Below the pieces are notes generated by a model. It ran no database searches, had not been told where the DNA came from, and worked only from the letters and a program-made list of their open reading frames with translations. Made by a program: the position numbers and the translations under genes. DNA of 64,000 nucleotides from Candidatus Scalindua japonica (GTDB lineage: Bacteria; Planctomycetota; Brocadiia; Brocadiales; Scalinduaceae), in the NCBI RefSeq assembly GCF_002443295.1, contig NZ_BAOS01000029.1:62001-126000 (forward strand), given 5' to 3'. Below, one piece after another: positions 901-17,433 of the stretch (position 1 is its first letter; the number at the start of each line of letters is the position of its first letter).

Positions 901-2208
901 ATGCGGAAAAGAACGCGGTCCCGAGAAATTGTATTACAGGTTCTTTATCAATTAGAGGTTCGGGGCAATGACGTTATAGACGAGGTAGACGCGTTCTGTA
1001 TTGAACAGGGTACGGATGCCGAAGTAAGCGATTTTGCCATTAAATTGGTAAATGGCTGTATTCAGAAAATGGGAGAAATAGACCGGAGGATAACCAGTAT
1101 TTCTGAAAATTGGGAACTGCAGAGGATGCCGGTTGTAGATAAAAATATTTTGAGGTTGGCATGTTATGAACTATTTTATGTGGATGACATTCCTCCAAAG
1201 GTATCTATCAACGAGGCGATTGATTTAGCGAAAAAATTCAGTACTGAGAAATCTGGATTATTTGTAAACGGAATATTAGATAAAATATATTCACTAAATA
1301 TAAAGAATGATAATAATCTTCGGAAAACTATAACAAGTGTAAGAGAGGTAAATGCTTCAGGAAAAGGAGGACGTACCGGGGCTGATTTGCATATCCATAC
1401 TGATTTTTCAGATGGGACCATGTCTCCTGAACAAGTGATTAAAGAGGCGTCTAAACTAAATCTTCGTACAATTGCGATAACCGATCATGATACTATTGAT
1501 GCTGTTGAGTTTGCCCAACACATTGGAAACAGGGAAGAGATTGACGTGGTTCCCGCAATAGAGCTTTCTTCGAATTATTGTTCGGCAGATATTCACCTTT
1601 TAGGCTATTTTATTGATATACAGAACAGTGCGCTTCTGGAAAAATTAGCGGAGTTGCGTTCTGAAAGAGTAGAGCGAATTAAGAAGATTACAAAGAAGCT
1701 CAGAACCATAGGTGTAAAAGTGGAGCACCAGGAAGTTTTTGATGTTTCTAAAGAAGGTTCGCCCGGACGGATGCACATAGCTGAGGTTTTGTGTAATAAA
1801 GGTTACTGTAGTGATATTCGGGAATCTTTTCAAAAATATCTCTCTGATAATGGACCGGCTTATGTGTCCAAGGAAGCGTTAGCATTAAAAGACGCTATAG
1901 AACTTATAATTTCTGCTGATGGTGTTCCAGTCCTTTCACATCCTGGTGTTACCAAGAGAGATTCGTTAATACCCAAGATGGTGGAATATGGCCTGCAGGG
2001 GATAGAGGTTTATTACCCTGCACATCAACCGCAAGCCGTAAAAAGATATTTGCGGATTGCAAAAAAATATGATCTTGTAGTTACCGGTGGCTCTGATTGC
2101 CACGGTAATCGGAAACCTGATATCGCATTGGGGAGTGTAAATATAGGTGACGAACTGGTTACTAAGATTAAGGATAGGTGCGGCAGCATGGTTGGCGCCT
2201 TGAACTGA
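901..2208 (+). CDS. NusB antitermination factor fused to a PHP-domain phosphoesterase
   Basis: One uninterrupted frame of 435 residues carries two families. Residues 1 to about 137 match NusB, the RNA-binding antitermination factor that works with NusE in rRNA transcription: RKRTRSREIVLQVLYQLEV at the start and the INEAIDLAKKFS and FVNGILDKI helices at the end. After a linker of about 20 residues, residues 160-435 are a PHP domain of the TrpH/YciV type: DLHIHTDFSDG with the HxH metal ligands, AITDHDT, PAIELS, VLSHPGV and GGSDCHG. TrpH-type proteins hydrolyse 3',5'-nucleoside bisphosphates or short RNA 5' ends. The ATG at 901 follows a GGAG-like sequence. No frame break or internal start signal separates the halves, so a real fusion is likely; an internal translation start for the PHP part cannot be excluded. 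Confidence 0.9.
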   Translation: MRKRTRSREIVLQVLYQLEVRGNDVIDEVDAFCIEQGTDAEVSDFAIKLVNGCIQKMGEIDRRITSISENWELQRMPVVDKNILRLACYELFYVDDIPPKVSINEAIDLAKKFSTEKSGLFVNGILDKIYSLNIKNDNNLRKTITSVREVNASGKGGRTGADLHIHTDFSDGTMSPEQVIKEASKLNLRTIAITDHDTIDAVEFAQHIGNREEIDVVPAIELSSNYCSADIHLLGYFIDIQNSALLEKLAELRSERVERIKKITKKLRTIGVKVEHQEVFDVSKEGSPGRMHIAEVLCNKGYCSDIRESFQKYLSDNGPAYVSKEALALKDAIELIISADGVPVLSHPGVTKRDSLIPKMVEYGLQGIEVYYPAHQPQAVKRYLRIAKKYDLVVTGGSDCHGNRKPDIALGSVNIGDELVTKIKDRCGSMVGALN

Positions 2209-5119: not shown

Positions 5120-6025
5120 ATGAAGAAAGGCTTATTAATCGCAGCAATGGCGTTAGGGCTTGGTGTAGGTAGCATGTGTGTAGAGTTAAATAGAGCTGAG
5201 GCTGCAGTTTCAGCAGTACAACTTGACGTTGTTGATCTAATGGATTGGGGTAGGTCGTATGACTATGATCTCGGCACTAACACTTACACACCTGCTGCTG
5301 GTTCCGATAATCCATGGAATCCAGGTGGTGTAAACAATCCAGGTGTGTCAATGGTAGCTGATACATTTGGCAATCATGATGGAACGGAAGATACATGGGG
5401 AATTGCGCAAATTGATCAGATCACAAATACCGCAGGAACAATATCATTATTTGATAAAGATCTGAGCAACTTTGAGTTGACGATGTTTTTCTGGGGCTTC
5501 GATGACGATATTATTACAGCACCAAATGTTTTGGGTAATTCAAACATCGGTGCAGTTGGTGGCCGTGTACAAGTTTGGAAGGATTTTGCACAAGATTTTG
5601 ACCCTACAATTGGGACAGCCGGAAGAACAGGCGGTTCAACATTCACTACCGCCACAGAGGGTGAGCTAGTACTTGATTTAATACCTCATGCATTTGCGAA
5701 TGGAACGACTTTAAATGCTAATTTTAATTTTATATCTAATACGGGAAGCGGTGTCGTTTATCTTGACACCTCAGGCGCCGGTTCATGGGACGCTTTTTAT
5801 GACACTGATTCACAATTAATGGGTTCTGATTTCCTCTTTCAATGGACAGTTGAAAATAATGCACAAGGGGATACAGTTGCTGACTGGACAGTTCGTGGAG
5901 ACGGACGACAGGAAGCTGCACTTGTTCCTGAAGCAACAACAGTTGCACTACTCGGAATAGGTTTAGTAGGAATGGCTGGTGTGGCGGTAAGAAAAAAATT
6001 AAAAAAGAACGTAGAAAGAAGCTAG
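5120..6025 (+). CDS. PEP-CTERM sorting domain protein
   Basis: The ATG at 5120 has an excellent ribosome binding site (GGAAAGGAGAGAG just upstream); an in-frame TTG at 5102 is rejected. The 301-residue product has a signal peptide (MKKGLLIAAMALGLGVGS, probable cleavage near AEAA). The middle is a secreted, Asp/Asn/Gly/Thr-rich domain I do not recognise. The C-terminus has the exosortase sorting signal: VPEATTVALLGIGLVG, a hydrophobic helix, then the basic tail RKKLKK. Such proteins are processed by an exosortase and exported to the surface or extracellular matrix. No exosortase gene lies in this window. A decayed copy of the exosortase-associated acyltransferase lies 300 bases downstream. Confidence 0.88.
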   Translation: MKKGLLIAAMALGLGVGSMCVELNRAEAAVSAVQLDVVDLMDWGRSYDYDLGTNTYTPAAGSDNPWNPGGVNNPGVSMVADTFGNHDGTEDTWGIAQIDQITNTAGTISLFDKDLSNFELTMFFWGFDDDIITAPNVLGNSNIGAVGGRVQVWKDFAQDFDPTIGTAGRTGGSTFTTATEGELVLDLIPHAFANGTTLNANFNFISNTGSGVVYLDTSGAGSWDAFYDTDSQLMGSDFLFQWTVENNAQGDTVADWTVRGDGRQEAALVPEATTVALLGIGLVGMAGVAVRKKLKKNVERS

Positions 6026-6085: not shown

Positions 6086-6321
6086 GATTATATAAGGACC
6101 AGACATATCATAGCTTTCTTTCAGTTGTCTATATTTTGTTGTATAAACTCCGGCAAGTAGGTTTGCTTTCAGCGGAATATAAACAAAAAATACTTTAGGA
6201 TAGCCGTTTGCAACTCGCAAGATATCGACCTATCTAAGGTGACCAAAGCTTAAATAATTCTAGGTTTTTAATCTTTGCGTATTTCTCACCAACCCTGTTT
6301 TTCTCAATCTAAATTGATGTA

Positions 6322-6800
6322 GCTGTACTTTCTGGGCTTCTCATATCCACTTTTCTTCTATAATGCTTTAGATATAGGGATTTGCATTTTTATAATTCTT
6401 CTATATTTTGTATTCCCATCATACAGGCGGCACCAAATCCAAAATCAGGATGGTACATACTTTCTTGACCTACTTTATAATCGAGACGGATGAAAAAATG
6501 GTACTTTATCTTCCATGAAATCAATAAAAAGAATACATGATGTTATTTTCTGTTTGTTGGACTCTCTTAAGTTGCACAAGCAAGTCTAAGTGTTATCCTT
6601 GAAGATCTATAGCCTTTTCTAACTTGTTTATTTGAAAAGGTTTTTTGTGTTTAATTGTATGTATGAATGCCTTTTGTGTATGATATATCCTGCAGTTTGG
6701 GATATGATGAGGGATAGTGAAACGAAAATATACGTAACTTCCTTTGCAGAAAATGTCTATTCTGTCAACATTATTGTCTAGTTTGATTACCAGCATTCAT
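6322..6800 (-). pseudogene. Decayed copy of the PEP-CTERM/exosortase-associated acyltransferase
   Basis: Read on the minus strand, this stretch encodes fragments clearly matching the intact gene at 14346-15005. The C-terminal part reads GQESMYHPDFGFG, then IQNIEEL, a stop codon where the intact gene has Glu, then SLYLKHYRRKVDM; the intact protein has SQKNMSHPEFGHG, LQNIEELEK and SLYLKHYRRTVDM. Frame changes occur around 6480-6560, and the middle (IYHTQKAFI, INKLEKAID) aligns only weakly. Nucleotide similarity continues beyond the stop into 6237-6320, matching 14282-14345. This is a duplicated and inactivated gene. Confidence 0.85.
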
Positions 6801-7242: not shown

Positions 7243-8676
7243 ATGTTTGATAGAAATAAAATAAGAAAAATAGTTCTTGTTAATCCTCCCATGAATATTG
7301 AAGAGGTTTATGGGAAATTTTCTGAATTAGGAGGAGCTTCGCCTCCAACGGGATTATGTTACTTGGCAGGTTATTTACGTGACTTTGGTTATGATGTTTC
7401 AATCATAGATGGAGAAGCATTAAGGTTATCGTGTCATGACACTGTGAGTAAAATACTAACAGAACAACCTGATTTTGTGGGTCTTTCTTGTAAAACTTTG
7501 TGGGTTACTAATGCTGGCAAGATTGCTAAGCTTATCAAAGAAAAAAATCGTGATATTATTGTTTCTGCGGGAGGACATCATGTTACCTCTCTACCTAAAC
7601 AATCTTTACAAGAATTCTCAGGGTTTGATTCTATTATTATTGGGGAAGGAGAAATAACCCTTCTTGAATATATTAATACAATCAATGAAAATAGTGATTA
7701 CTCCAGTGTTCAGAGTCTTGCTTATAGAGACGGTGCAGATATTAAAGTAAATTCAAGAAGAGAAGAAACAATAGATATCAACAAATTACACAAGCCTGCG
7801 TTTGATTTACTACCAGATCTTGCAACACACTATAACCCGAGCATTATAAATGTAAAAAGCCTTCCCGCATTTCCTCTAATCACTTCACGTGGTTGCCCTT
7901 TTCAATGTGCATTTTGTGATAGAAATGTTTTTGGAAACACGACACGTATTCCTTCTGCAGAGTATACTTTTTCTATTGTAGAAGAATTATATTATAAATA
8001 TGGAATACACAATTTACTTTTTGATGATGATAATATCATGATAAATAAAACGATATTTCTAAAATTAATGAATTTTATTAAAGAATCAGATATGAAATTA
8101 TCATTTTCATGCCAAGCAAGAGTTAATTCCATTGATGAAGATTCTCTGAAAATATTAAAAGAAAGTGGATGTTGGCAATTAATGTTTGGAATTGAATCTG
8201 GAAGTCAAAAGATGCTTAAAGCAATGAAAAAAGGAACAAAATTACATCAAATTGAAAATGCAGTTTCTATGTGCCGTAAGATTGGTATTAAAACACTTGG
8301 TATGTTTATTTTTGGATATCCTGGAGAAACGATCGAGACACTTCAAGAAACAGAAATGTTTATTAGAAAGTTAAAATTAGATGATTTGGCTAGTTTTTTC
8401 TTTACACCTTTACCTGGTTCAGATGTATATGATGATATAGAAAAATATGGAAAATATGAAAAGCAATGGAATAAAGGTAATAGCCTGGACCACGCTCTTT
8501 TTATTCCTGACGGTTTAGATGAAAAAACACTTAAAAAATTTGTTAATCTATGTAATAATGCATGTTATTCAAATCTGCGTCAACTTATTAGAATTCCAAC
8601 ACGATTTACTTCTTTAACACATACAAAAGCATTTTTACAATCAATACCGAAATTAATGTTTTCATCCCACAATTAG
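7243..8676 (+). CDS. Cobalamin-binding radical SAM protein
   Basis: ATG 7243 is preferred because GGAG lies six bases upstream; earlier in-frame starts lie on the binding site itself. The 477-residue protein has an N-terminal B12-binding fold (GGASPPTGLCYLAGYLRDFG, then VSAGGHHVTSLP and IIIGEGE) and a radical SAM core with the cluster motif CPFQCAFCD (cysteines at 218, 222 and 225), GIESGS and FIFGYPGE. The family (BchE/methyltransferase-like class) does methylations, ring closures or rearrangements on small molecules or peptides; the substrate cannot be read from sequence. It opens a five-gene plus-strand cluster and ends inside a long AT-rich hairpin. Confidence 0.88.
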   Translation: MFDRNKIRKIVLVNPPMNIEEVYGKFSELGGASPPTGLCYLAGYLRDFGYDVSIIDGEALRLSCHDTVSKILTEQPDFVGLSCKTLWVTNAGKIAKLIKEKNRDIIVSAGGHHVTSLPKQSLQEFSGFDSIIIGEGEITLLEYINTINENSDYSSVQSLAYRDGADIKVNSRREETIDINKLHKPAFDLLPDLATHYNPSIINVKSLPAFPLITSRGCPFQCAFCDRNVFGNTTRIPSAEYTFSIVEELYYKYGIHNLLFDDDNIMINKTIFLKLMNFIKESDMKLSFSCQARVNSIDEDSLKILKESGCWQLMFGIESGSQKMLKAMKKGTKLHQIENAVSMCRKIGIKTLGMFIFGYPGETIETLQETEMFIRKLKLDDLASFFFTPLPGSDVYDDIEKYGKYEKQWNKGNSLDHALFIPDGLDEKTLKKFVNLCNNACYSNLRQLIRIPTRFTSLTHTKAFLQSIPKLMFSSHN

Positions 8677-8692
8677 ATGAAAACATTAATTT
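8650..8692 (+). terminator. Perfect 17-bp AT-rich hairpin over the radical SAM stop codon
   Basis: The 17 bases at 8650-8666 are the exact reverse complement of 8676-8692, with a nine-base loop. The stop codon of the radical SAM gene (8674-8676) ends in the loop and first base of the right arm. The stem is AT-rich and followed by TTG TTT rather than a pure T-run, so attenuation, RNA processing or mRNA stabilisation are as likely as termination. Confidence 0.6.
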
Positions 8693-8809
8693 GTTTCAAC
8701 ACAGGTTTTCATGGTAAATATGTGTCTCTAATTTTATGAAGAAGAGGCACCTTATGTGATTTTTTGATTTTTTCATCAATCAACATTACATTAATTATAA
8801 GAAAAACAA

Positions 8810-10222
8810 ATGAGCCAATTGAAGAATGTATGTACAGAAAGAAAGAATGCCATCAAGTTTCTCACAGGTTCTGATCCTTCGTATATAGAAAACTTGGGCA
8901 AAAAACTCCTGATACCGGCTTTTAGAAGAGCGGCAACAAAGATGCCTGCTTATGCTAAACTTTTAAATGATAAAGGGATTAATCAGAAAGATATTAACAC
9001 TATTGATGATTTTCAAGAAAAAGTCCCATTTTTTACAAAAAAAGACTTCTTTGTTGATACACCTATGGAAGAGCTATGTGTTGACAAGAACATTCAGTCT
9101 TTAAAATTGGCTGTAACCAGTTCGGGATTCTCTGGAGTATTCTCTTTAGGTATGAGTACTGAACAAGATCAAAATCAAAGCATTTTTGCAGTTGATACAC
9201 TTCTTGAATATCTCATAAATATTTCAGAAAAAAAAACGTTTTTGATCAATTGCGTTCCTATGGGAGTAAAAATTCCAACTAGCCTACCAATAGCTGAAGT
9301 AAGTGTAAGGAGCGATATGGCCCTGGCGCTAATTAATAAATTTACTCCATATTTTGAGCAGATTCTTATAATAGGCGATCCACATTTTTTAAAAAAAATT
9401 ATTGAAGATGGCTTGGAACAAGGGTTAGATTGGAAAAATTTATCAGTCAATTTTATTACTGGTGAAGATTGGTTTTCAGAAAATTTTCGTTTATATTTAG
9501 CTGATCTTCTAGAAATTGACTTTAATCGTTCTGATAGTGGTTTTTTTGGAGCAAATTTTGGGATAGCCGAATTGGATTTAAGCCTTTTTCATGAAAGCAT
9601 TTATACAATTCGTTTGCGCCAGGAATTACAAAAGAATACACGTTTAAGAGAAAAGATTTTTGGGAAAAACACAAAAATTATTCCCCTCATCTTTCAATAT
9701 TATCCACATAAAGTTTTTCTTGAAACTACACAGGAAAATGAGCTTCTTTTTTCAATGCTTAACCCTGATATTCTTATGCCTCTGATCCGCTATAATAGCC
9801 AGGATCAAGGTGCTATTCGATCATATGAAGAAGTTAAAAAGATTTTAACAGAAGAAAATTGCCAGCATCTTATTCCAGACCTTAAACTTCCTTTAGTGAG
9901 TGTTACTGGAAGGTCAGGCAGATCTTTGACCGTTCATGGAAAGACAGTAACGCCTGAAGAGATAAAAGAGGGATTGTATAGTGATTATGAGGTCGCATTT
10001 TTAACAACAGGTTATTTCAAATTAAGTCAAATGGCTGACAATGAAGGAAAAATTGAGATACAACTTAAAAAGGGTGTGATGAAAACTGCGGAGTTAAAGA
10101 CAAGGTTTACGAAGGCTCTTTTAAAGCATGTCGATGCGGACATTGAAATTCATTTTTATGATTACCAGGATTTTCCTTATGGAATGGATTTGGATTACGA
10201 AAGAAAATTCAAATGTATTTAA
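8810..10222 (+). CDS. PaaK-like adenylate-forming ligase
   Basis: This 470-residue protein resembles the phenylacetate-CoA ligase branch of the ANL (adenylate-forming) superfamily. Seen in the sequence: an N-terminal helical region with AFRRAATKMPAYAKLL and VPFFTKKDFF, a nucleotide-binding loop VTSSGFSG (residues 102-109) standing for the usual SSG(T/S)TG, LMPLIRYNSQDQGAI (the RY and acidic residues near the ATP ribose) and a C-terminal VSVTGRSGRSLTVHGK hinge. Such enzymes activate a carboxylate as AMP ester and pass it to CoA, an amine or a carrier. The substrate is unknown. It is the second gene of the cluster. Confidence 0.75.
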   Translation: MSQLKNVCTERKNAIKFLTGSDPSYIENLGKKLLIPAFRRAATKMPAYAKLLNDKGINQKDINTIDDFQEKVPFFTKKDFFVDTPMEELCVDKNIQSLKLAVTSSGFSGVFSLGMSTEQDQNQSIFAVDTLLEYLINISEKKTFLINCVPMGVKIPTSLPIAEVSVRSDMALALINKFTPYFEQILIIGDPHFLKKIIEDGLEQGLDWKNLSVNFITGEDWFSENFRLYLADLLEIDFNRSDSGFFGANFGIAELDLSLFHESIYTIRLRQELQKNTRLREKIFGKNTKIIPLIFQYYPHKVFLETTQENELLFSMLNPDILMPLIRYNSQDQGAIRSYEEVKKILTEENCQHLIPDLKLPLVSVTGRSGRSLTVHGKTVTPEEIKEGLYSDYEVAFLTTGYFKLSQMADNEGKIEIQLKKGVMKTAELKTRFTKALLKHVDADIEIHFYDYQDFPYGMDLDYERKFKCI

Positions 10223-10259
10223 AAGTATTGAAATTTTAATTTTAAACTAGGATAATATA

Positions 10260-11141
10260 ATGAAAATTGTGAATGCCCATGTTCATATGATTGAACTGGA
10301 AAAAATGGTAAAAAAAAATGCAGGTCATAAAGTTCCTGGTGGTATATCAGTTTTACAGGACATAGAAGCCACGATGCCTCTCCTGTCTCCCGAAGTCTTA
10401 ATTGGTCAAATGGAAGATGCAGGGGTTTCTCAGTCAGTTCTTTATGCCGTAGATGCCCCTATAGTTTATTCCTCTAATGAGTATGTACAAACCCTCTGTG
10501 CGCAGTTCCCCGATCGTCTTATGGGTTTTGCCTCAGTGAATCCCAATGATAAGGATGCTGTTGAGAGGCTTGATAAAGCGGTTAATGAACAGGGGCTGCG
10601 CGGACTTAAACTGCACCCCCCTCTACAAAATTTCTTCCCTAATAATGAGTCTGTTTTTCCGATTTACGAAAAGGCAGTTGAATTAAAAATCCCGGTTGTT
10701 TTTCACGTTGGGACGACTCCATTTGGAAGCCTGGCACGCCTATCACAAGCAAACCCTATTCTTATAGATGATGTCGCAGTGGAATTTCCGGATTTAAGGA
10801 TTATGTTAACTCATCTTGGCACACTTTCCCACTTAGAGGCGTTCATGGTAGTTGAAAAGAACCCAAATGTTTATATTGATACTTCCGCCTATCTATATGA
10901 AATTAAGGAGCTCCTTACCATGAACCTTATTACGCGATTGGGACCTCATAAAATTATTTTTGGAACAGATTATCCCATGCCTTATGCCGGCTTGATCCAT
11001 CAAATGAAAGATTTTGTAGAGTGTTTGAAAGGTTTAAACCTTACTGAAGATATTTTAGAAGGTATCTTTTATAAAAATTTTGAAACTTTTATGAATTATG
11101 AATCTTCGAATGAAGACATAGATTTTCAACAATTCATATGA
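10260..11141 (+). CDS. Amidohydrolase family 2 (metal-dependent TIM-barrel hydrolase)
   Basis: This 293-residue protein has the layout of amidohydrolase-2/ACMSD-like enzymes: NAHVHMIE with the N-terminal HxH, LRGLKLHPPLQNFFP, VVFHVGTTP, IMLTHLGT and the C-terminal metal aspartate in IFGTDYPMPYAG. Members decarboxylate or hydrolyse cyclic or aromatic carboxylates. The gene starts 37 bases after the ligase, so they are probably co-transcribed. The third member of the unrecognised cluster. Confidence 0.85.
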   Translation: MKIVNAHVHMIELEKMVKKNAGHKVPGGISVLQDIEATMPLLSPEVLIGQMEDAGVSQSVLYAVDAPIVYSSNEYVQTLCAQFPDRLMGFASVNPNDKDAVERLDKAVNEQGLRGLKLHPPLQNFFPNNESVFPIYEKAVELKIPVVFHVGTTPFGSLARLSQANPILIDDVAVEFPDLRIMLTHLGTLSHLEAFMVVEKNPNVYIDTSAYLYEIKELLTMNLITRLGPHKIIFGTDYPMPYAGLIHQMKDFVECLKGLNLTEDILEGIFYKNFETFMNYESSNEDIDFQQFI

Positions 11142-11251
11142 ATTTGAATAAGATAAATTATTTGTTATAGCTCGCGAAAATTTTTATTCACGTGTAAATT
11201 TTATGTTGGATCAACTAAAACTCACAAACTACAGAAAAAAGGAGAAATTTT

Positions 11252-12076
11252 ATGTGGTCTGAGTACTACAAAAACATTGCAAACAGAAATATTGGACTTT
11301 TAAATAAAGAGCAACAAGAAGAATTAAAAGGATCATGTGTTGCGGTATGTGGAGTTGGAGGATTAGGTGGTGTGATTTCAGAAATATTAGCTCGGACTGG
11401 AATAGAGTCTTTTAAATTGCTTGACAATGGAAAATTTGAGCCAACGAATTTAAATCGTCAGATATATTCTTTTAATGATACAAATGACTGTTACAAAATT
11501 GATGTGACTGAAGAATATCTCAAAAAAATTAATCCTGATATTAAGATAGTGAAAGAACTGGAAATAACAGAAGAAAATGTTGACAATTTCCTTGAAGGTG
11601 TAGATGTCATAGCCTTATCGATTGACTCAGTCTTACCTGTTCTTATATTGAGCAGGGCAGCAAGAAGATTAAATATTCCACTTGTTGAGGGTTGGGCAGT
11701 TGTTTTTGGTAATGTCAGAGTTTTTAATGATCAAACCCCATCTGTTGAGGAGATGTATAAATTCCCAACTATTGGAAGAGAGATATCTAGCATTACAGAA
11801 GAAGAAGCCCGGAAATTGATGTATCAATCTGTTTTAAGCTTGGAAACAATTGATGGTCTGCTAGAGCATTATCCCGAATCAGCATTTAAACGTCTACAAG
11901 AAAAAGGTGAAGGGACAACCTTAGCGCCTATGGTCTGGATGACATGTGTGATGATGGCCTTAGAAGTTTTCAAGATTATTTTGAATTGGGGCAAAATTGC
12001 CTTAGCACCTAACTATGCAGTCTATGATGGTATTAATCATCAAATAAGAAACCAACAGAACAATATCGATGAGTGA
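11252..12076 (+). CDS. E1-like ThiF/MoeB family adenylyltransferase
   Basis: The 274-residue protein has the Rossmann ATP site of E1-like enzymes: CGVGGLGGVISEILARTG (residues 33-50), LLDNGKFEPTNLNRQ with the arginine that contacts ATP, and IALSIDS where the Mg-binding aspartate normally sits. It adenylates a carboxyl group, usually the C-terminal glycine of a ThiS/MoaD-like protein or, in MccB-type enzymes, a peptide. The two CxxC zinc pairs of MoeB and ThiF are absent, and no ubiquitin-like partner is encoded nearby, which favours an unusual substrate. It is preceded by AAAAAAGGAG and overlaps the next gene by eight bases, so the two are translationally coupled. Confidence 0.85.
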   Translation: MWSEYYKNIANRNIGLLNKEQQEELKGSCVAVCGVGGLGGVISEILARTGIESFKLLDNGKFEPTNLNRQIYSFNDTNDCYKIDVTEEYLKKINPDIKIVKELEITEENVDNFLEGVDVIALSIDSVLPVLILSRAARRLNIPLVEGWAVVFGNVRVFNDQTPSVEEMYKFPTIGREISSITEEEARKLMYQSVLSLETIDGLLEHYPESAFKRLQEKGEGTTLAPMVWMTCVMMALEVFKIILNWGKIALAPNYAVYDGINHQIRNQQNNIDE

Positions 12077-13415
12077 GCAAACCAACACCGAGAATTTTTT
12101 TTTACGCCTACATCGCCTTGGATTAATTCGTCCCTTTATTCGTTTCTCTCTTCGCCTGCGTAAAGTAATTCTTCAAGGGGTTCATTACAATACTGATATG
12201 GTGACAAATCAGCTTACGTATGTTGACTTTGTCACCGATTCGTTCAAAGAGCGTACTCTTCCCCAACACGACTTTCAATCCAAAAGCGCCTTTGAGGCTT
12301 CGTTTATTTCCTTAGCCGATACCTTTCATCAATTGTTTGGATATCGATACTCCCTTCCTGTTTCCCAGGGAAGAAGCGCTGAGTTGATTCTGGCCAAGGT
12401 GCTTGTAAAACCTGGAATGGTTATTCCAAATAACCTTCTTTTTATATCAACAAGCTATCATCAGACATTGGCCGGAGCTGAACTCATAGAAATACCTGTA
12501 GTTGAGGCCTACGATCTTATTAGCGACTCACCTTTCAAAGGAAACATTGATACTAAGCAATTAGAGGTGGTGATTCGTAAGTATGGGAAAGAAAAGATCC
12601 CTTATGTACTGATAGAGACCGCGGTGAATGCCTCCGGAGGTCACCCTGTCTCAATGGAAAACATTAAAAATGCCTATAATATTACCAAAGAGCATAATAT
12701 CCCTTTAATATTAGACGCATGTAGATTGCTTGATAACGCCTGTTTGATACGGCAAAGAGAGCAAGGTTATTCTCACAAATCACTTAAAGAGATAGTCATG
12801 GAGTTCTGCTCATACACGGATGGCTGTGTGATGAGTGCGTCAAAAAACTACTATATTGATACCGGAGGGTTTATTGCAACTAATATCGAACAGCTATTTA
12901 ATCAGTTTATGGATGTCGTTATGGTGTATGGAGACGGTCTTTCAGTCAGGGCCAAGGGAAAACTAAATACAGCGATCAAATACCCTTTTAAAAACGAACG
13001 AATTATTAATGACCGGGTAAATATAACTTCTTATCTGTGGAAAAAACTTGAAGAAGCAGGAGTTCCTGTCGTTAGACCTGCTGCAGCATGTGCGGTTTTT
13101 ATAGACACATATCAACTTTCTGAATACATCGCCCCTGATCAATTTCCAGAGAAATCTTTTCTTGTCCACCTTTATCTGAAATCAGGTATTCTCGGAAGTG
13201 AGAATTTGATAACAACGGGACAAGGCAGGAAAGGAATCAGAATGGTACGGTTTGCATTACCATTAAGAAGCTATAAAATTCGTCATATGAACTATGTAGC
13301 CAAACATATTATCCAGGCATGGAAAGAGAGAAAACAGATAAAAGGGTTGAAAAAGACTTACGCGGCTCCATGTCAAAGCGGACAATTCATGGCACAATAC
13401 CAGATTATTGAATAA
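12069..13415 (+). CDS. Tryptophanase/tyrosine phenol-lyase family PLP enzyme
   Basis: The 448-residue protein shows the beta-eliminating lyase layout: PVSQGRSAE (phosphate-binding loop; PTHQGRGAE in tryptophanase), ETAVNASGGHPVSM, LDACRLLDNA (the aspartate that contacts the PLP ring nitrogen) and TDGCVMSASKN with the likely PLP lysine at residue 259, followed by TGGF. Classical members cleave tryptophan or tyrosine to indole or phenol, pyruvate and ammonia. The active-site neighbourhood (SASKN for SGKKD) is clearly diverged, so the substrate may differ. It overlaps the E1-like gene and ends the cluster. Confidence 0.83.
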   Translation: MSEQTNTENFFLRLHRLGLIRPFIRFSLRLRKVILQGVHYNTDMVTNQLTYVDFVTDSFKERTLPQHDFQSKSAFEASFISLADTFHQLFGYRYSLPVSQGRSAELILAKVLVKPGMVIPNNLLFISTSYHQTLAGAELIEIPVVEAYDLISDSPFKGNIDTKQLEVVIRKYGKEKIPYVLIETAVNASGGHPVSMENIKNAYNITKEHNIPLILDACRLLDNACLIRQREQGYSHKSLKEIVMEFCSYTDGCVMSASKNYYIDTGGFIATNIEQLFNQFMDVVMVYGDGLSVRAKGKLNTAIKYPFKNERIINDRVNITSYLWKKLEEAGVPVVRPAAACAVFIDTYQLSEYIAPDQFPEKSFLVHLYLKSGILGSENLITTGQGRKGIRMVRFALPLRSYKIRHMNYVAKHIIQAWKERKQIKGLKKTYAAPCQSGQFMAQYQIIE

Positions 13416-13426
13416 TGGATATACAA

Positions 13427-14212
13427 TTGAAACTTAAAGAAAAACACGCTATTGAGTTTTTAGGCATCTCTGGTATTACATTTGACTCATGGTATGCCTC
13501 AACAAAAACACCTGGAATACATCGACTATAAAGAAAAAATCTTTTTCTCTGAAATAAAATCTAATAGAAATATCTTCATGTGCCATCCTGCAAAGAAGAT
13601 CCATTGTGTGGTCAAACCAGATGAGCTTGTCACCCTTATCAAAAAGTATTATTGAGGCACAAGGTACAATACGTTAAACGTATAAATCAGGGTGGTAGTG
13701 GATTTTCATATTAAACGTACTCGTTCGAAGCTAAAACTAAAGATTGTAAGATCCCCCATTAAATTCGTAGTAGTCTTTGGCCAACGGAATAAGGATCACG
13801 ACAAAAAATATTATATCCTCATTACGGATCAACTGTAAGCATATACCGGAACTATTATAAAAAACTACTTACTCAGATGTGGTATTGAGTATTGTTTCAA
13901 GGAACTAAAAGATATATTCTGCCTTGACCACTATCAAGTCAGAAATATTGACAAAATTGAAAGATACTGGAAACTATATCTCTGATTGCATGGGCTCTCA
14001 CTTACTGGACAAAACAAAACGTGTATCTTGATAAAATCTTCGCAACTAAGCCTGTTGGCTTTAACGAATTTAAGCAAGCTATCAACTCCTTGCTTGAATT
14101 TTCTGCGGCCAGTGAACTTTCAAAGAATGCAACACTTGCCAACGGGTATTTCGGAATAAAATCGGCCAGGGGTGGAAAAAAATTGCCACCTGACATTTTT
14201 TTAACAAAGTAA
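13427..14212 (+). pseudogene. Decayed DDE-type transposase (IS4-like)
   Basis: Successive fragments in different plus-strand frames assemble into one transposase: GISGITFDSWYAS (about 13463-13501), then PQQKHLEYIDYKEKIFF to a stop near 13656, then VDFHIKRTRSKLKLK to KKYYILITDQL, then NYLLRCGIEYCFKELKD to WKLYL, and last IAWALTYWTKQNVYLDK to the stop at 14212. Motifs such as TFDSWYAS and the C-terminal IE.CFKELKD...H.QVR helix are typical of IS4/IS701-like transposases. At least four frame breaks or stops make it inactive. I could not define terminal repeats or a target duplication. Confidence 0.8.
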
Positions 14213-14345: not shown

Positions 14346-15005
14346 TTAAGCAGCTATTCTTGCTCGGTTCCACATATCCACTGTCCTTCTATAATGTTTT
14401 AGATATAGGGAATTTTGTTTTTCCAGTTCTTCAATATTTTGTAATTCAATCACTAATGCCACTCCATGCCCAAACTCAGGATGAGACATATTTTTTTGAC
14501 TCACTTTAAAACCTAGACGAACAAAAAATGGTACATTTTCAGGTATACAATCAATAAAAGAATACATAATATTGTCTTCTGATTGTTGGGTTAATGTCGC
14601 ACACGCAAGCTTAAACGCGATATTTGAAGACCTAAAGTCCTTTCTGACAATAAACTTTGTAGAAATAGAAGAATCAAAATATGAGCTATTAGCGAATTCA
14701 TGCATTTTGTATAGCTCAGGATAGTATCCTAAATCAGAGTGCTTAGTATAATTGGTTAAAAGCGTGCCAATAGCTTCGTTATTTTTAAATACTCCATATA
14801 AATGTCCAGTGTTGTCTAAAGGGTCTTTGAGTATTTTTAATTTATGGTCAGCATGCGGTTGTTCATATTTAAGATCCTTTATATATACAGAATATCTTAG
14901 TTTATAAAGTTGGTAAACTTCATCTTGTTGCTGCTCTGTAAGAGGTTTAGAGATATCGTATTTTTTAATCTCTAACTTGCTTTTGTGTCCATTATTGTTG
15001 AGCAT
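14346..15005 (-). CDS. PEP-CTERM/exosortase-associated N-acyltransferase (GNAT fold)
   Basis: The start at 15005 is chosen because AAGGGAAGGAG lies just upstream of that ATG; an earlier in-frame start at 15041 has none. The 219-residue protein resembles the acyltransferase that accompanies exosortase systems and the related N-acyl amino acid synthases (FeeM-like, GNAT superfamily): VYQLYKLRYSVYIKDL, IGTLLTNYTKHSD, KFIVRKDFRSSNIAFKLAC (acyl-CoA/ACP-binding region) and CIPENVPFFVRLGF. It probably transfers a fatty acyl chain from acyl-ACP to an amine such as an amino acid. A damaged copy in the same orientation lies at 6322-6800, so the five-gene cluster sits between the two copies. Confidence 0.72.
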   Translation of the reverse strand: MLNNNGHKSKLEIKKYDISKPLTEQQQDEVYQLYKLRYSVYIKDLKYEQPHADHKLKILKDPLDNTGHLYGVFKNNEAIGTLLTNYTKHSDLGYYPELYKMHEFANSSYFDSSISTKFIVRKDFRSSNIAFKLACATLTQQSEDNIMYSFIDCIPENVPFFVRLGFKVSQKNMSHPEFGHGVALVIELQNIEELEKQNSLYLKHYRRTVDMWNRARIAA

Positions 15006-15399
15006 AACATTCTCCTTCCCTTTAAACTTAAATAGATACATTAAAACAAAAATTACTAATTAATAAATGGATTTTATGCTTTTTCGCTTTTTAATAAAAA
15101 CTGCTTAACGTTAGTTGGTTAAAGCAATTGTAATGCCATTGTGTGTTAATTAACCATAAGGCACATGCCAGGCAGAGCTTAGTACAATTTGACAGCTTTG
15201 TTTTCTACCGGAATTATATATCAGTATGGGGCATATTTAGTTGTTATAAACCAAAAATTGACCCATTCTGGGGAACTTCGGTTTTAGAAAGAGATGGATA
15301 GGCATCTCAATTTAATATTGAGATAATACTTATCAAGTTGCTTTCCATCCGTTGTCAGAAGATGCACATCAAACATCTGTATCTTCTTGAACTTTTCTA
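15006..15399. other. Non-coding stretch between the acyltransferase and the PHP-ATPase
   Basis: No gene seen. It must contain the promoter of the acyltransferase (minus strand) and the 3' end of the neighbouring gene's message; nothing distinctive stands out. Confidence 0.4.
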
Positions 15400-17433
15400 T
15401 TAACGCCCTTGGTGTAAACCCAGGTGATAGTGGCCTGATCTTTTGTCATAAGAGGAGACTCCTCCTTCCAGGATATTTATCACTTCATCTTTTTTATCAC
15501 TTTTTTCGATCGAAAATCCTGAAGTAATTTTGGTCTTAGTAATAGACTTTGGTTCGAGTAAAATAAAGTTTTCTGGATCGGAATTCACCGCAATCGTAGG
15601 GTTCGAAGTGAACAGGATGATCTGCCTGAAGTCCTTATGTTTTATAATTATGGGGACTAAGAAATCCGATATATCTATGTTGTCTATACTCTCTTCAGGG
15701 GAGTCGATTATGACTGGGCCGAATCGGTCATTCATGATAATCATCATAATCATAACCGTTCTTTTCAGACTTCTTCTCAGTTTTTGAAATTCCATTCGTC
15801 TGGTTTCCCCTTTTTTCCAGTTTATATTCAGGAATAGCTTTAAGTGGCCATTTTTCTCTAGAAACAGAAGTTCCTCTTTTTTTGGATCGAGGAAACCAGA
15901 AGTTGTATATTTTTCATTGAATTTTTTAATACCCTCTTTTTTATCAACACCAAAGTTATTTACTAAAAATTCTTCCAGCTTTTTTCTCGATGCAATAATC
16001 TCGTTTATTCTATCAGGGTTATAAAAATTTACTTTAACAGGTGATTTTTGCCAATTGTCAATATTATCTTTTCTTAAAATTTTGCCGTCATCTGTACTCG
16101 TGAAGAGGAACGGATCATCACCGTTATTGTTTCTGGTAAAACATTTATAAGAGGATTTTGCATCTTTCATTATCTCTACAAATAGTTTAACCTTGCTGCC
16201 TGGTTTGATAAAATCTTTATTTACCGCACTTTTCATGGCTTGACATATATTGCTTTTGCCAGTCTCCTTTTTGCCGGTTATACAGTTTAAATGCCTGTTA
16301 AAGCGGACAAGTTGTTTACCAAACTGTTTGCTGTCAATTTCAACTCCATAAACAAACAGGCCGGATTGGACAGGGCTAAAGGTAGTTGAAATTCTCACCC
16401 TTGTGGAAGGATTGTGAATACAATTTTCCAGTCCTTCAAAAGAGGGTTCCGTCATTTTTACATAGGCATACCTTTTTCCAATGGTTTTGTAGTCATGTGC
16501 GTCTGATCCCTGAAAATAAGCGAGCGGCGTAAGATTTTTTTTTCTTCTTAATGAGTCAATCAAATTTTTTACACTTACTTTAAGTGTCTTGTCTAATTTA
16601 GAAAATTTTCCAGGGTTAACGATTTCTACTGCGGACAGGTTTTTATTGTAAAACACGTTTTTCATAGCACCACTTTTTAGTTTATATAATTGCAGTGTGG
16701 CCTGGTCACTACCATCTATATGGGCGAGGCATGGTATTCCTCCTTTCCTTTTGATCAAATTAACCGCATCAATTAGGCTCCGTTTTCCTACCTTGGGATT
16801 CTTCCCCCATTCTTCGATTTTAAATCCGATTTCATTGAGTAGTTGGCAGATAATAAAGTGGTTAGAACGGCGTGGTGTCGTGGGTGGAAAAACTGCAAGG
16901 ATGTGTACACCCGTACAGCTTATTTCCACACTCGGTAAAATGGTTAATACTATTTTACCGGCCTTTTCATTTGCTTTTTGTGCAGCGTCGTCGATAATTT
17001 CGTACCATGTTGGCGCTGTTAAATCCATTGTCTTTTTTGTGGACTCAGGGTATGCCCATATCGTCCCAATGCTATTATGGTCGCTTATTGCTACGAGAGA
17101 AAGGTTTTCTTCAAGGAATCTTTGAATAATTTTTTCAGCAACTTCTCGTGAATTGAACAAAATATCATTCTGCTTCTGTTTTATATTCTTATAATACGTC
17201 TGTTCGTTGCCTTTTTTAGGAGGGTATTTAATATTGTAAGGATTAAAGTTGTACTTATTTCTCCCTCGGGCATCTTCTGATGCAGGGGTATGAAAATGAA
17301 GATCTGCTTTGAAAAACCTTGCTCCTATTGGGCGCTTACTCATTTCGAGAAAGCTTTTATTTATTTCATTTTCCAGTTTCATTGTGAAGTTTTTGGCAAA
17401 ACAAAATTTATTATAATACGACGCCAGGGTCAC
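15400..17433 (-). CDS. PHP domain plus ABC-type ATPase (TrlF-like), probably damaged
   Basis: The 677-residue product has an N-terminal PHP domain (residues 40-345: KADLHFHTPAS, LVAISDHNS, PSVEIS, GIPCLAHIDGSD, YFQGSDAHD) and an SMC/RecF-like ATPase with P-loop GKKETGKS (387-394) and Walker B VIIDSPEES (574-582). This is the TrlF-like architecture, associated with nucleic-acid processing and found in defence contexts. Two oddities: the stretch between the ATPase halves (about 500-550) is far shorter than I expect for the family, and where the ABC signature (LS-G-Q) should stand the sequence reads LRRSLKRT (552-559). I suspect an internal deletion with loss of function, although the frame is open. 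The true start may be Met18 or Met31. Confidence 0.7.
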   Translation of the reverse strand: MTLASYYNKFCFAKNFTMKLENEINKSFLEMSKRPIGARFFKADLHFHTPASEDARGRNKYNFNPYNIKYPPKKGNEQTYYKNIKQKQNDILFNSREVAEKIIQRFLEENLSLVAISDHNSIGTIWAYPESTKKTMDLTAPTWYEIIDDAAQKANEKAGKIVLTILPSVEISCTGVHILAVFPPTTPRRSNHFIICQLLNEIGFKIEEWGKNPKVGKRSLIDAVNLIKRKGGIPCLAHIDGSDQATLQLYKLKSGAMKNVFYNKNLSAVEIVNPGKFSKLDKTLKVSVKNLIDSLRRKKNLTPLAYFQGSDAHDYKTIGKRYAYVKMTEPSFEGLENCIHNPSTRVRISTTFSPVQSGLFVYGVEIDSKQFGKQLVRFNRHLNCITGKKETGKSNICQAMKSAVNKDFIKPGSKVKLFVEIMKDAKSSYKCFTRNNNGDDPFLFTSTDDGKILRKDNIDNWQKSPVKVNFYNPDRINEIIASRKKLEEFLVNNFGVDKKEGIKKFNEKYTTSGFLDPKKEELLFLEKNGHLKLFLNINWKKGETRRMEFQKLRRSLKRTVMIMMIIMNDRFGPVIIDSPEESIDNIDISDFLVPIIIKHKDFRQIILFTSNPTIAVNSDPENFILLEPKSITKTKITSGFSIEKSDKKDEVINILEGGVSSYDKRSGHYHLGLHQGR

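Follow-up and report, generated by a model that had tools for sequence, protein, structure and literature searches.

A stretch of 64,000 nucleotides from Candidatus Scalindua japonica (NCBI RefSeq assembly GCF_002443295.1, contig NZ_BAOS01000029.1, positions 62,001 to 126,000, hereafter the window, in whose numbering all positions are given) carries a gene cluster whose conserved unit consists of a PaaK-like ligase, an Amidohydro_2 protein, a ThiF-like E1 and a pyridoxal phosphate (PLP) enzyme of the tyrosine phenol-lyase (TPL) fold. Comparison of the encoded sequences with described systems suggests that the cluster probably specifies a variant of the N-acyl amino acid/oxazolone-type pathways, one without a nitroreductase and with a PaaK-like enzyme, an amidohydrolase and a non-TPL PLP enzyme added. 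We infer both the product and the order of the reactions: the former would most likely be a small, lipid-like compound of the modified N-acyl amino acid kind, possibly an oxazolone, of a sort not so far described from anammox bacteria.

Four genes are conserved as a unit

The window proteins were scored with Pfam and NCBIfam profiles, Pfam having no family for the PaaK-like protein. The first-pass annotation of this DNA had described five same-orientation genes with one overlap, and all five were recovered as open reading frames (ORFs) on one strand with family matches, the last two overlapping by 8 bases. The four that make up the unit are:

8810-10222, plus strand: PaaK-like ANL adenylating enzyme (NCBIfam PaaK models at a weak 30-36 bits; hhalign to E. 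coli PaaK)
10260-11141, plus strand: metal-dependent hydrolase/decarboxylase, Amidohydro_2 (Pfam, 140 bits)
11252-12076, plus strand: ThiF-like (E1-like) adenylating enzyme, a proposed N-acyl amino acid cyclase (ThiF, 134 bits)
12069-13415, plus strand: PLP enzyme of the TPL/tryptophanase fold with a remodelled active site (Beta_elim_lyase, 152 bits)

Our comparison set comprised 13 genomes of the genus (anammox-like planctomycetes) and 62 of the order. The PaaK-like protein was found in two of the 62, namely the window genome and 'Candidatus Brocadiaceae bacterium S225' (G048, hereafter S225), which keeps the four genes in the same order with intergenic gaps of 40, 15 and -14 bases. Protein identity between the two reaches 74% for PaaK, 83% for the amidohydrolase, 90% for the E1 and 87% for the TPL-like enzyme, and the four-gene set is under purifying selection, with ratios of nonsynonymous to synonymous substitution (dN/dS) of 0.14, 0.09, 0.07 and 0.13, respectively. 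The earlier impression of an unusual small-molecule cluster was right, and the recurrence goes beyond chance. A PNPase tree does not place the two genomes that carry the cluster as sisters, and the set is therefore patchy yet kept together; S225 pairs instead with G055, an 86% complete draft that gave no match to PaaK or TPL.

The E1 lies outside MoeB/ThiF and groups with acyltransferase-linked E1s

Phylogenetic analysis placed the window E1 outside the MoeB/ThiF clade (support 100/100), and four E1s linked to an amidohydrolase and PaaK, including those of the planctomycete loci G542 and G418 (41-44% identical to the window E1), formed one group (98.7/99). By sequence, the window E1 is placed near the ThiF-like family that includes the acyl-oxazolone cyclases (TyzB/OxzB/TrzS and those of the stieleriacine clusters); this placement was reached through FeeM- and nitroreductase-linked E1s and the models PRK08223, PRK14851 and PRK14852, TyzB and TrzS sequences not being part of the tree. 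The earlier statement that no described pathway was known with this combination was thus too strong, as described ThiF-like cyclases work with FeeM-type N-acyltransferases and nitroreductases in the tyz, oxz, trz and stieleriacine systems. In PRK14852 (NCBIfam), FeeM and E1 are joined in one chain, with the G418 FeeM matching residues 2-281 and the E1s matching from about residue 310. A genome search with the E1 as query returned S225 and otherwise distant E1s at 30-34% identity.

Residues R12, R69, K82 and D125 are retained in the window E1, and Asp125 is likely the equivalent of the essential adenylation Asp of the TrzS pathway. As the first-pass annotation had correctly noted, zinc CxxC pairs are missing from the E1 (none in the alignment) and no ThiS/MoaD-like ORF was found near the cluster. 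Together with the tree position, these observations led us to reject a MoeB/ThiF-type sulfur-carrier role.

Relatives of the unit adjoin FeeM and nitroreductase genes in other planctomycetes

In an independent search, 397 genomes of another planctomycete class were screened with the PaaK profile alone. Besides the already known G249, nine strong loci were recovered, and all nine adjoin pathway genes (FeeM in five, nitroreductase in four, and also E1 in two). G542 and G418 carry amidohydrolase-PaaK-E1 with a convergent, strong FeeM alongside, and G593, G450 and G569 carry PaaK with FeeM. In the four nitroreductase loci, that gene lies immediately upstream of PaaK; of two such calls that were tested, one scored above the Pfam cut-off and the other was made by a profile built in this analysis alone. 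Among the loci found earlier, G249 combines PaaK with two FeeM genes, and G291 has the arrangement PaaK-E1-nitroreductase. An HlyD-FtsX-ABC pump adjoins the gene set in G542 and G450. Of 20 FeeM loci sampled across the phylum, each as a stretch of 3-15 kb, 7 also contained such an E1, and 278 kb of control DNA gave zero matches to the pathway profiles. Recurrence in Planctomycetota, raised by the earlier annotation for all five genes, therefore holds for four of them in S225 and for amidohydrolase-PaaK-E1 in G542 and G418, but not for the radical SAM gene.

Plasmid matches consisted of PaaK-like proteins at 25-27% identity, E1s at about 30% and ordinary TPLs. No linked partner was found at the plasmid PaaK-like and Kovacikia TPL loci; the Shinella and Ensifer plasmid E1 loci have GNAT neighbours, and the Ensifer locus also a nitroreductase-like gene. 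Separately, a conserved cluster in Bdellovibrionota and Rhizobiaceae (L050, L051, L125, L126) combines a protein of unknown function of about 320 residues, a ThiF-like E1, a GNAT protein and a nitroreductase-like protein, and probably represents another oxazolone-type pathway. In S225, about 5.5 kb upstream of the cluster (L007, 6011-10016), we also observed a second PaaK-like gene, truncated (36%), together with genes for an FtsX permease, an ABC ATPase and a porin-like protein, a grouping that resembles the pump-PaaK layout of G542 and G450.

Active-site residues of the accompanying enzymes

The PLP enzyme has 33-35% sequence identity with tyrosine phenol-lyases, and it shares with TPL and tryptophanase the PLP lysine (K259), the PLP-contacting D216 and R219 and the substrate-carboxylate-binding R394 (window numbering). 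It differs from them in that, in both anammox copies, the Tyr71 segment is deleted or replaced, Lys256 is changed to Ser, Thr124 is changed to Ile and the Arg381 loop is deleted. Most planctomycete homologues retain the Tyr71/Tyr74 and Lys256 positions, as does E. coli TnaA, which is free of the anammox deletions and whose specificity residues differ from those of TPL. A simple TPL or tryptophanase was rejected, as the loop with the leaving-group acid Tyr71 is lost, together with Lys256 and the loop that carries Arg381; the earlier designation as a tryptophanase-like lyase thus stands for the fold and fails for the lyase catalytic loops. Judging from the retained residues, the enzyme should form an amino acid aldimine without TPL-type release of phenol or indole. 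The remodelled form was found in the two anammox clusters only.

The PaaK-like protein aligns to E. coli PaaK with an hhalign probability of 98%. Its family keeps the ANL adenylation motifs SSGxSG, RYxxxD and GR and a C-terminal Lys (K466), and it shares with the phenylacetate-CoA ligase these motifs and a PaaK-type N-terminal region. In contrast, identity over the alignment is 20% and matches to PaaK models are weak (35.8 and 30.0 bits, far below the curated cut-offs of 700 and 646), and by these sequence measures the protein is not a PaaK in the strict sense. The metal ligands of the amidohydrolase (H7xH9, H149, H185 and D237) are conserved in four of four orthologues, those of G542 and G418 being 62-64% identical to the window protein. 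AlphaFold2 models of the TPL-like enzyme (single sequence; predicted local distance difference test, pLDDT, 34) and of the PaaK-like enzyme (two sequences; pLDDT 40) were too poor and were not used.

Genes around the unit

The cluster is flanked by further features, several of which the first-pass annotation had overlooked: its inventory of the five genes was sound but omitted a FeeM-like gene, a decayed upstream copy of it and a PEP-CTERM gene.

5120-6025, plus strand: PEP-CTERM secreted protein, PepA-like (floc_PepA 43.8 bits, below the cut-off of 80)
6321-6623, minus strand: decayed FeeM-like copy with internal stops (similarity to 14352-14648)
7243-8676 (alternative start 7231), plus strand: B12-binding radical SAM protein (B12-binding 80 bits, Radical_SAM 79 bits)
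8650-8692, plus strand: 17-pair hairpin (inverted repeat) spanning the 3' end of the radical SAM gene (minimum free energy -18.6 kcal/mol, z -3.75)
13415-13454, plus strand: remaining start of a sixth gene (MDIQLKLKEK...), whose intact S225 counterpart encodes a 178-residue HExxH protein
14346-15041, minus strand: FeeM-like N-acyltransferase (Pfam FeeM 26.4 bits, cut-off 27)

The radical SAM gene, for which ATG at 7243 is a better fit than a TTG further upstream, had been counted as a cluster member. This assignment was rejected: the gene has no orthologue in S225 (best match 35%) and ends in its own hairpin. It falls outside the unit, since DNA homology with S225 spans only 8900, inside PaaK, to 13454. 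The hairpin is a putative transcript end; having no strong T-tract, it is not a canonical terminator. Downstream, S225 carries a sixth gene 3' of the set, which encodes a HELVH motif; the window retains its first codons only, and it was not found elsewhere in the genus. Where this gene is cut off, broken ORFs at about 13465-14200 resemble, on visual inspection, what is left of a transposase gene, and S225 too has an insertion-type transposase ORF, just upstream of its cluster.

The window's FeeM-like subfamily occurs in two of the 13 genus genomes, the same two that have the cluster. The decayed copy is 74% identical to 14352-14648 in DNA over 304 bases (50% in protein, with stops), and the PEP-CTERM gene adjoins it. 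A full-length homologue of the PEP-CTERM protein was found in the genus in S225 only (46%), 4.4 kb from the cluster. Co-occurrence of FeeM-like and PEP-CTERM genes with the cluster in the genus gave a Fisher p of 0.013, which is weak by itself as it involves two genomes but is backed by the FeeM loci sampled outside the genus. In G418, G450, G569 and G542, PEP-CTERM relatives (24-28% identical to the window protein) adjoin FeeM/PaaK genes and match it in the EDxWGI motif region and the C-terminal sorting signal. The window genome (G000) also has a second, stronger FeeM gene of 72 bits on contig C21 (L119, 5385-7703), directly behind a gene weakly similar to the window's B12 radical SAM gene product.

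Elsewhere in the window, an unusual fusion of a NusB domain (130 bits) and a PHP domain (45 bits) in one ORF at 901-2208 (plus strand) may be a genuine bifunctional protein or an assembly/frame artefact. At 15400-17433 (minus strand) lies a relative of anti-phage ATPases of the TrlF/Ppl type (207 bits with the TrlF model, below its cut-off of 350), a short or truncated defence gene adjoining the cluster (677 residues versus 944 in the model).

Comparison with known pathways

TyzA, TyzB and TyzC make acyl-oxazolones from acyl-coenzyme A (CoA) and an amino acid: the amino acid is N-acylated, the ThiF-like TyzB closes the ring in an ATP-dependent step, and a flavin enzyme carries out a desaturation (PMC10404671). 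TrzA/TrzS perform equivalent chemistry with tryptophan and require the Asp of the adenylation motif (PMC12856293). With tyzACB, trzAS (Mycobacterium tuberculosis) and oxzAB (P. rubra), the anammox locus has in common a ThiF-like putative cyclase and the adenylation Asp, and it has a candidate N-acyltransferase of the FeeM/acyl-homoserine lactone synthase fold, a marginal match in the window; unlike them, it has a PaaK-like ligase, an amidohydrolase and a TPL-like PLP enzyme and no flavin desaturase. By inference, the pathway would resemble the tyz type up to the cyclase step.

Stieleriacine-producing planctomycetes have NasY, ThiF and nitroreductase genes (PMC12479983). The clusters for stieleriacine, thalassotalic acid and kyonggic acid (NasY + ThiF + nitroreductase) resemble ours in combining a FeeM-type synthase (in the window a candidate one) with a ThiF protein in Planctomycetota, a pairing also seen in the sampled FeeM loci L102, L103 and L117. 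They differ in being described with a nitroreductase and a methyltransferase, no ligase, amidohydrolase or TPL being mentioned (PMC12479983). FeeM-like N-acyl amino acid synthase genes have further been linked to PEP-CTERM/exosortase systems (Craig, Cherry and Brady 2011, as cited in PMC4897644 and PMC12078418). Here, too, a FeeM-like gene lies beside a PEP-CTERM gene, whereas in this case a tailoring set (PaaK-like, amidohydrolase, E1) accompanies the synthase. We found no account of this gene combination in the open-access literature, and the tailoring set appears to be undescribed so far.

Proposed pathway and alternatives

In the variant pathway that we favour, the PaaK-like enzyme, whose motifs are observed, would adenylate a carboxylic acid to give an activated acyl donor, although it might activate the product instead. 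The TPL-fold enzyme, given its binding residues, would prepare the free amino acid building block, and the FeeM-like acyltransferase, by its family, would couple both into an N-acyl amino acid. By analogy with TyzB and TrzS, the E1 would then adenylate the free carboxylate and close an oxazolone or hand the activated acid on. The amidohydrolase, with its observed metal site, may decarboxylate or hydrolyse a building block or open the ring. In the relatives, the product would probably be exported by a MacB-type pump, the locus including a PEP-CTERM surface protein.

Several observations weigh against this proposal. The best NCBIfam match of the E1 is PRK08223 at 118 bits, under the cut-off. The FeeM-like gene is convergent to the cluster, 0.9 kb downstream, and its S225 orthologue sits on another contig; the window protein scores just under the Pfam cut-off (S225 orthologue, 36.6 bits) and shares no more than about 17% identity with the G542 and G418 FeeMs. 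No nitroreductase-family desaturase gave a profile match within the window, and the locus is thus not a complete tyz gene set; on account of this and of the marginal FeeM score, we did not class it as a tyz-type cluster. Clusters of other planctomycetes have no TPL-like gene, and no partner gene was seen at the PaaK-like loci G132 and G149 in the sequence examined, one contig being 3 kb only.

A possible, though less probable, alternative is that PaaK acts after FeeM, so that PaaK and E1 both activate the carboxylate of the N-acyl amino acid and the PaaK adenylate or CoA ester is coupled to another molecule, yielding an amide or ester instead of an oxazolone. FeeM enzymes classically take acyl chains from acyl carrier protein, for which a CoA ligase is unneeded. 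PaaK occurs with FeeM but not E1 in G593, G450, G569 and G249, as if it could substitute for E1, and the four loci with PaaK directly behind a nitroreductase are likewise without E1. Against this order of events, PaaK and E1 stand together in G542, G418, S225 and the window, and TyzA and TrzA use acyl-CoA, which a ligase could provide (PMC10404671, PMC12856293). That the TPL-like lyase, an Amidohydro_2 decarboxylase and a PaaK-like CoA ligase degrade or salvage an aromatic amino acid or acid is improbable: all these families do contain aromatic-acid enzymes, but the TPL-like protein has lost the loops and lysine noted above, no catabolic genes follow downstream, the E1 would be left without a role, and the relatives link to FeeM, E1 and nitroreductase genes. 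A ribosomal peptide pathway, with the E1 activating a peptide C-terminus in the manner of MccB (the first-pass annotation had seen a hint of peptide or small-acid activation), fits the missing zinc cysteines and carrier, PDB matches that include MccB and PaaA, and the adjacent, non-conserved B12 radical SAM gene, but was rejected as very improbable, because no precursor or other conserved small ORF was found near the genes, the S225 gaps are too small for one, and the E1 clusters with acyltransferase-linked E1s.

Implications for anammox bacteria

The N-acyl amino acid/oxazolone pathways, elucidated only lately in mycobacteria and proposed for planctomycetes, would with this cluster extend to uncultured anammox bacteria. 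Three enzymes would be new to these pathways, namely the adenylating PaaK-like family, an amidohydrolase dedicated to the set and the TPL-fold PLP enzyme with its remodelled active site. A gene set that was once unreadable now yields a testable product prediction. We also entertain, as an unlikely extension, that the product of the amidohydrolase/PaaK-like/E1/FeeM set is a lipo-amino acid that is exported for use by the PEP-CTERM/exosortase system itself, for example as lipid anchor of a dedicated PepA-like PEP-CTERM protein or as matrix surfactant made with it, with the former TPL supplying its amino acid in anammox bacteria. The tailoring enzymes add a second kind of evidence that N-acyl amino acid synthases go with PEP-CTERM surface proteins, an association without an explanation so far, which would be relevant to the way anammox bacteria aggregate and form biofilms in reactors.

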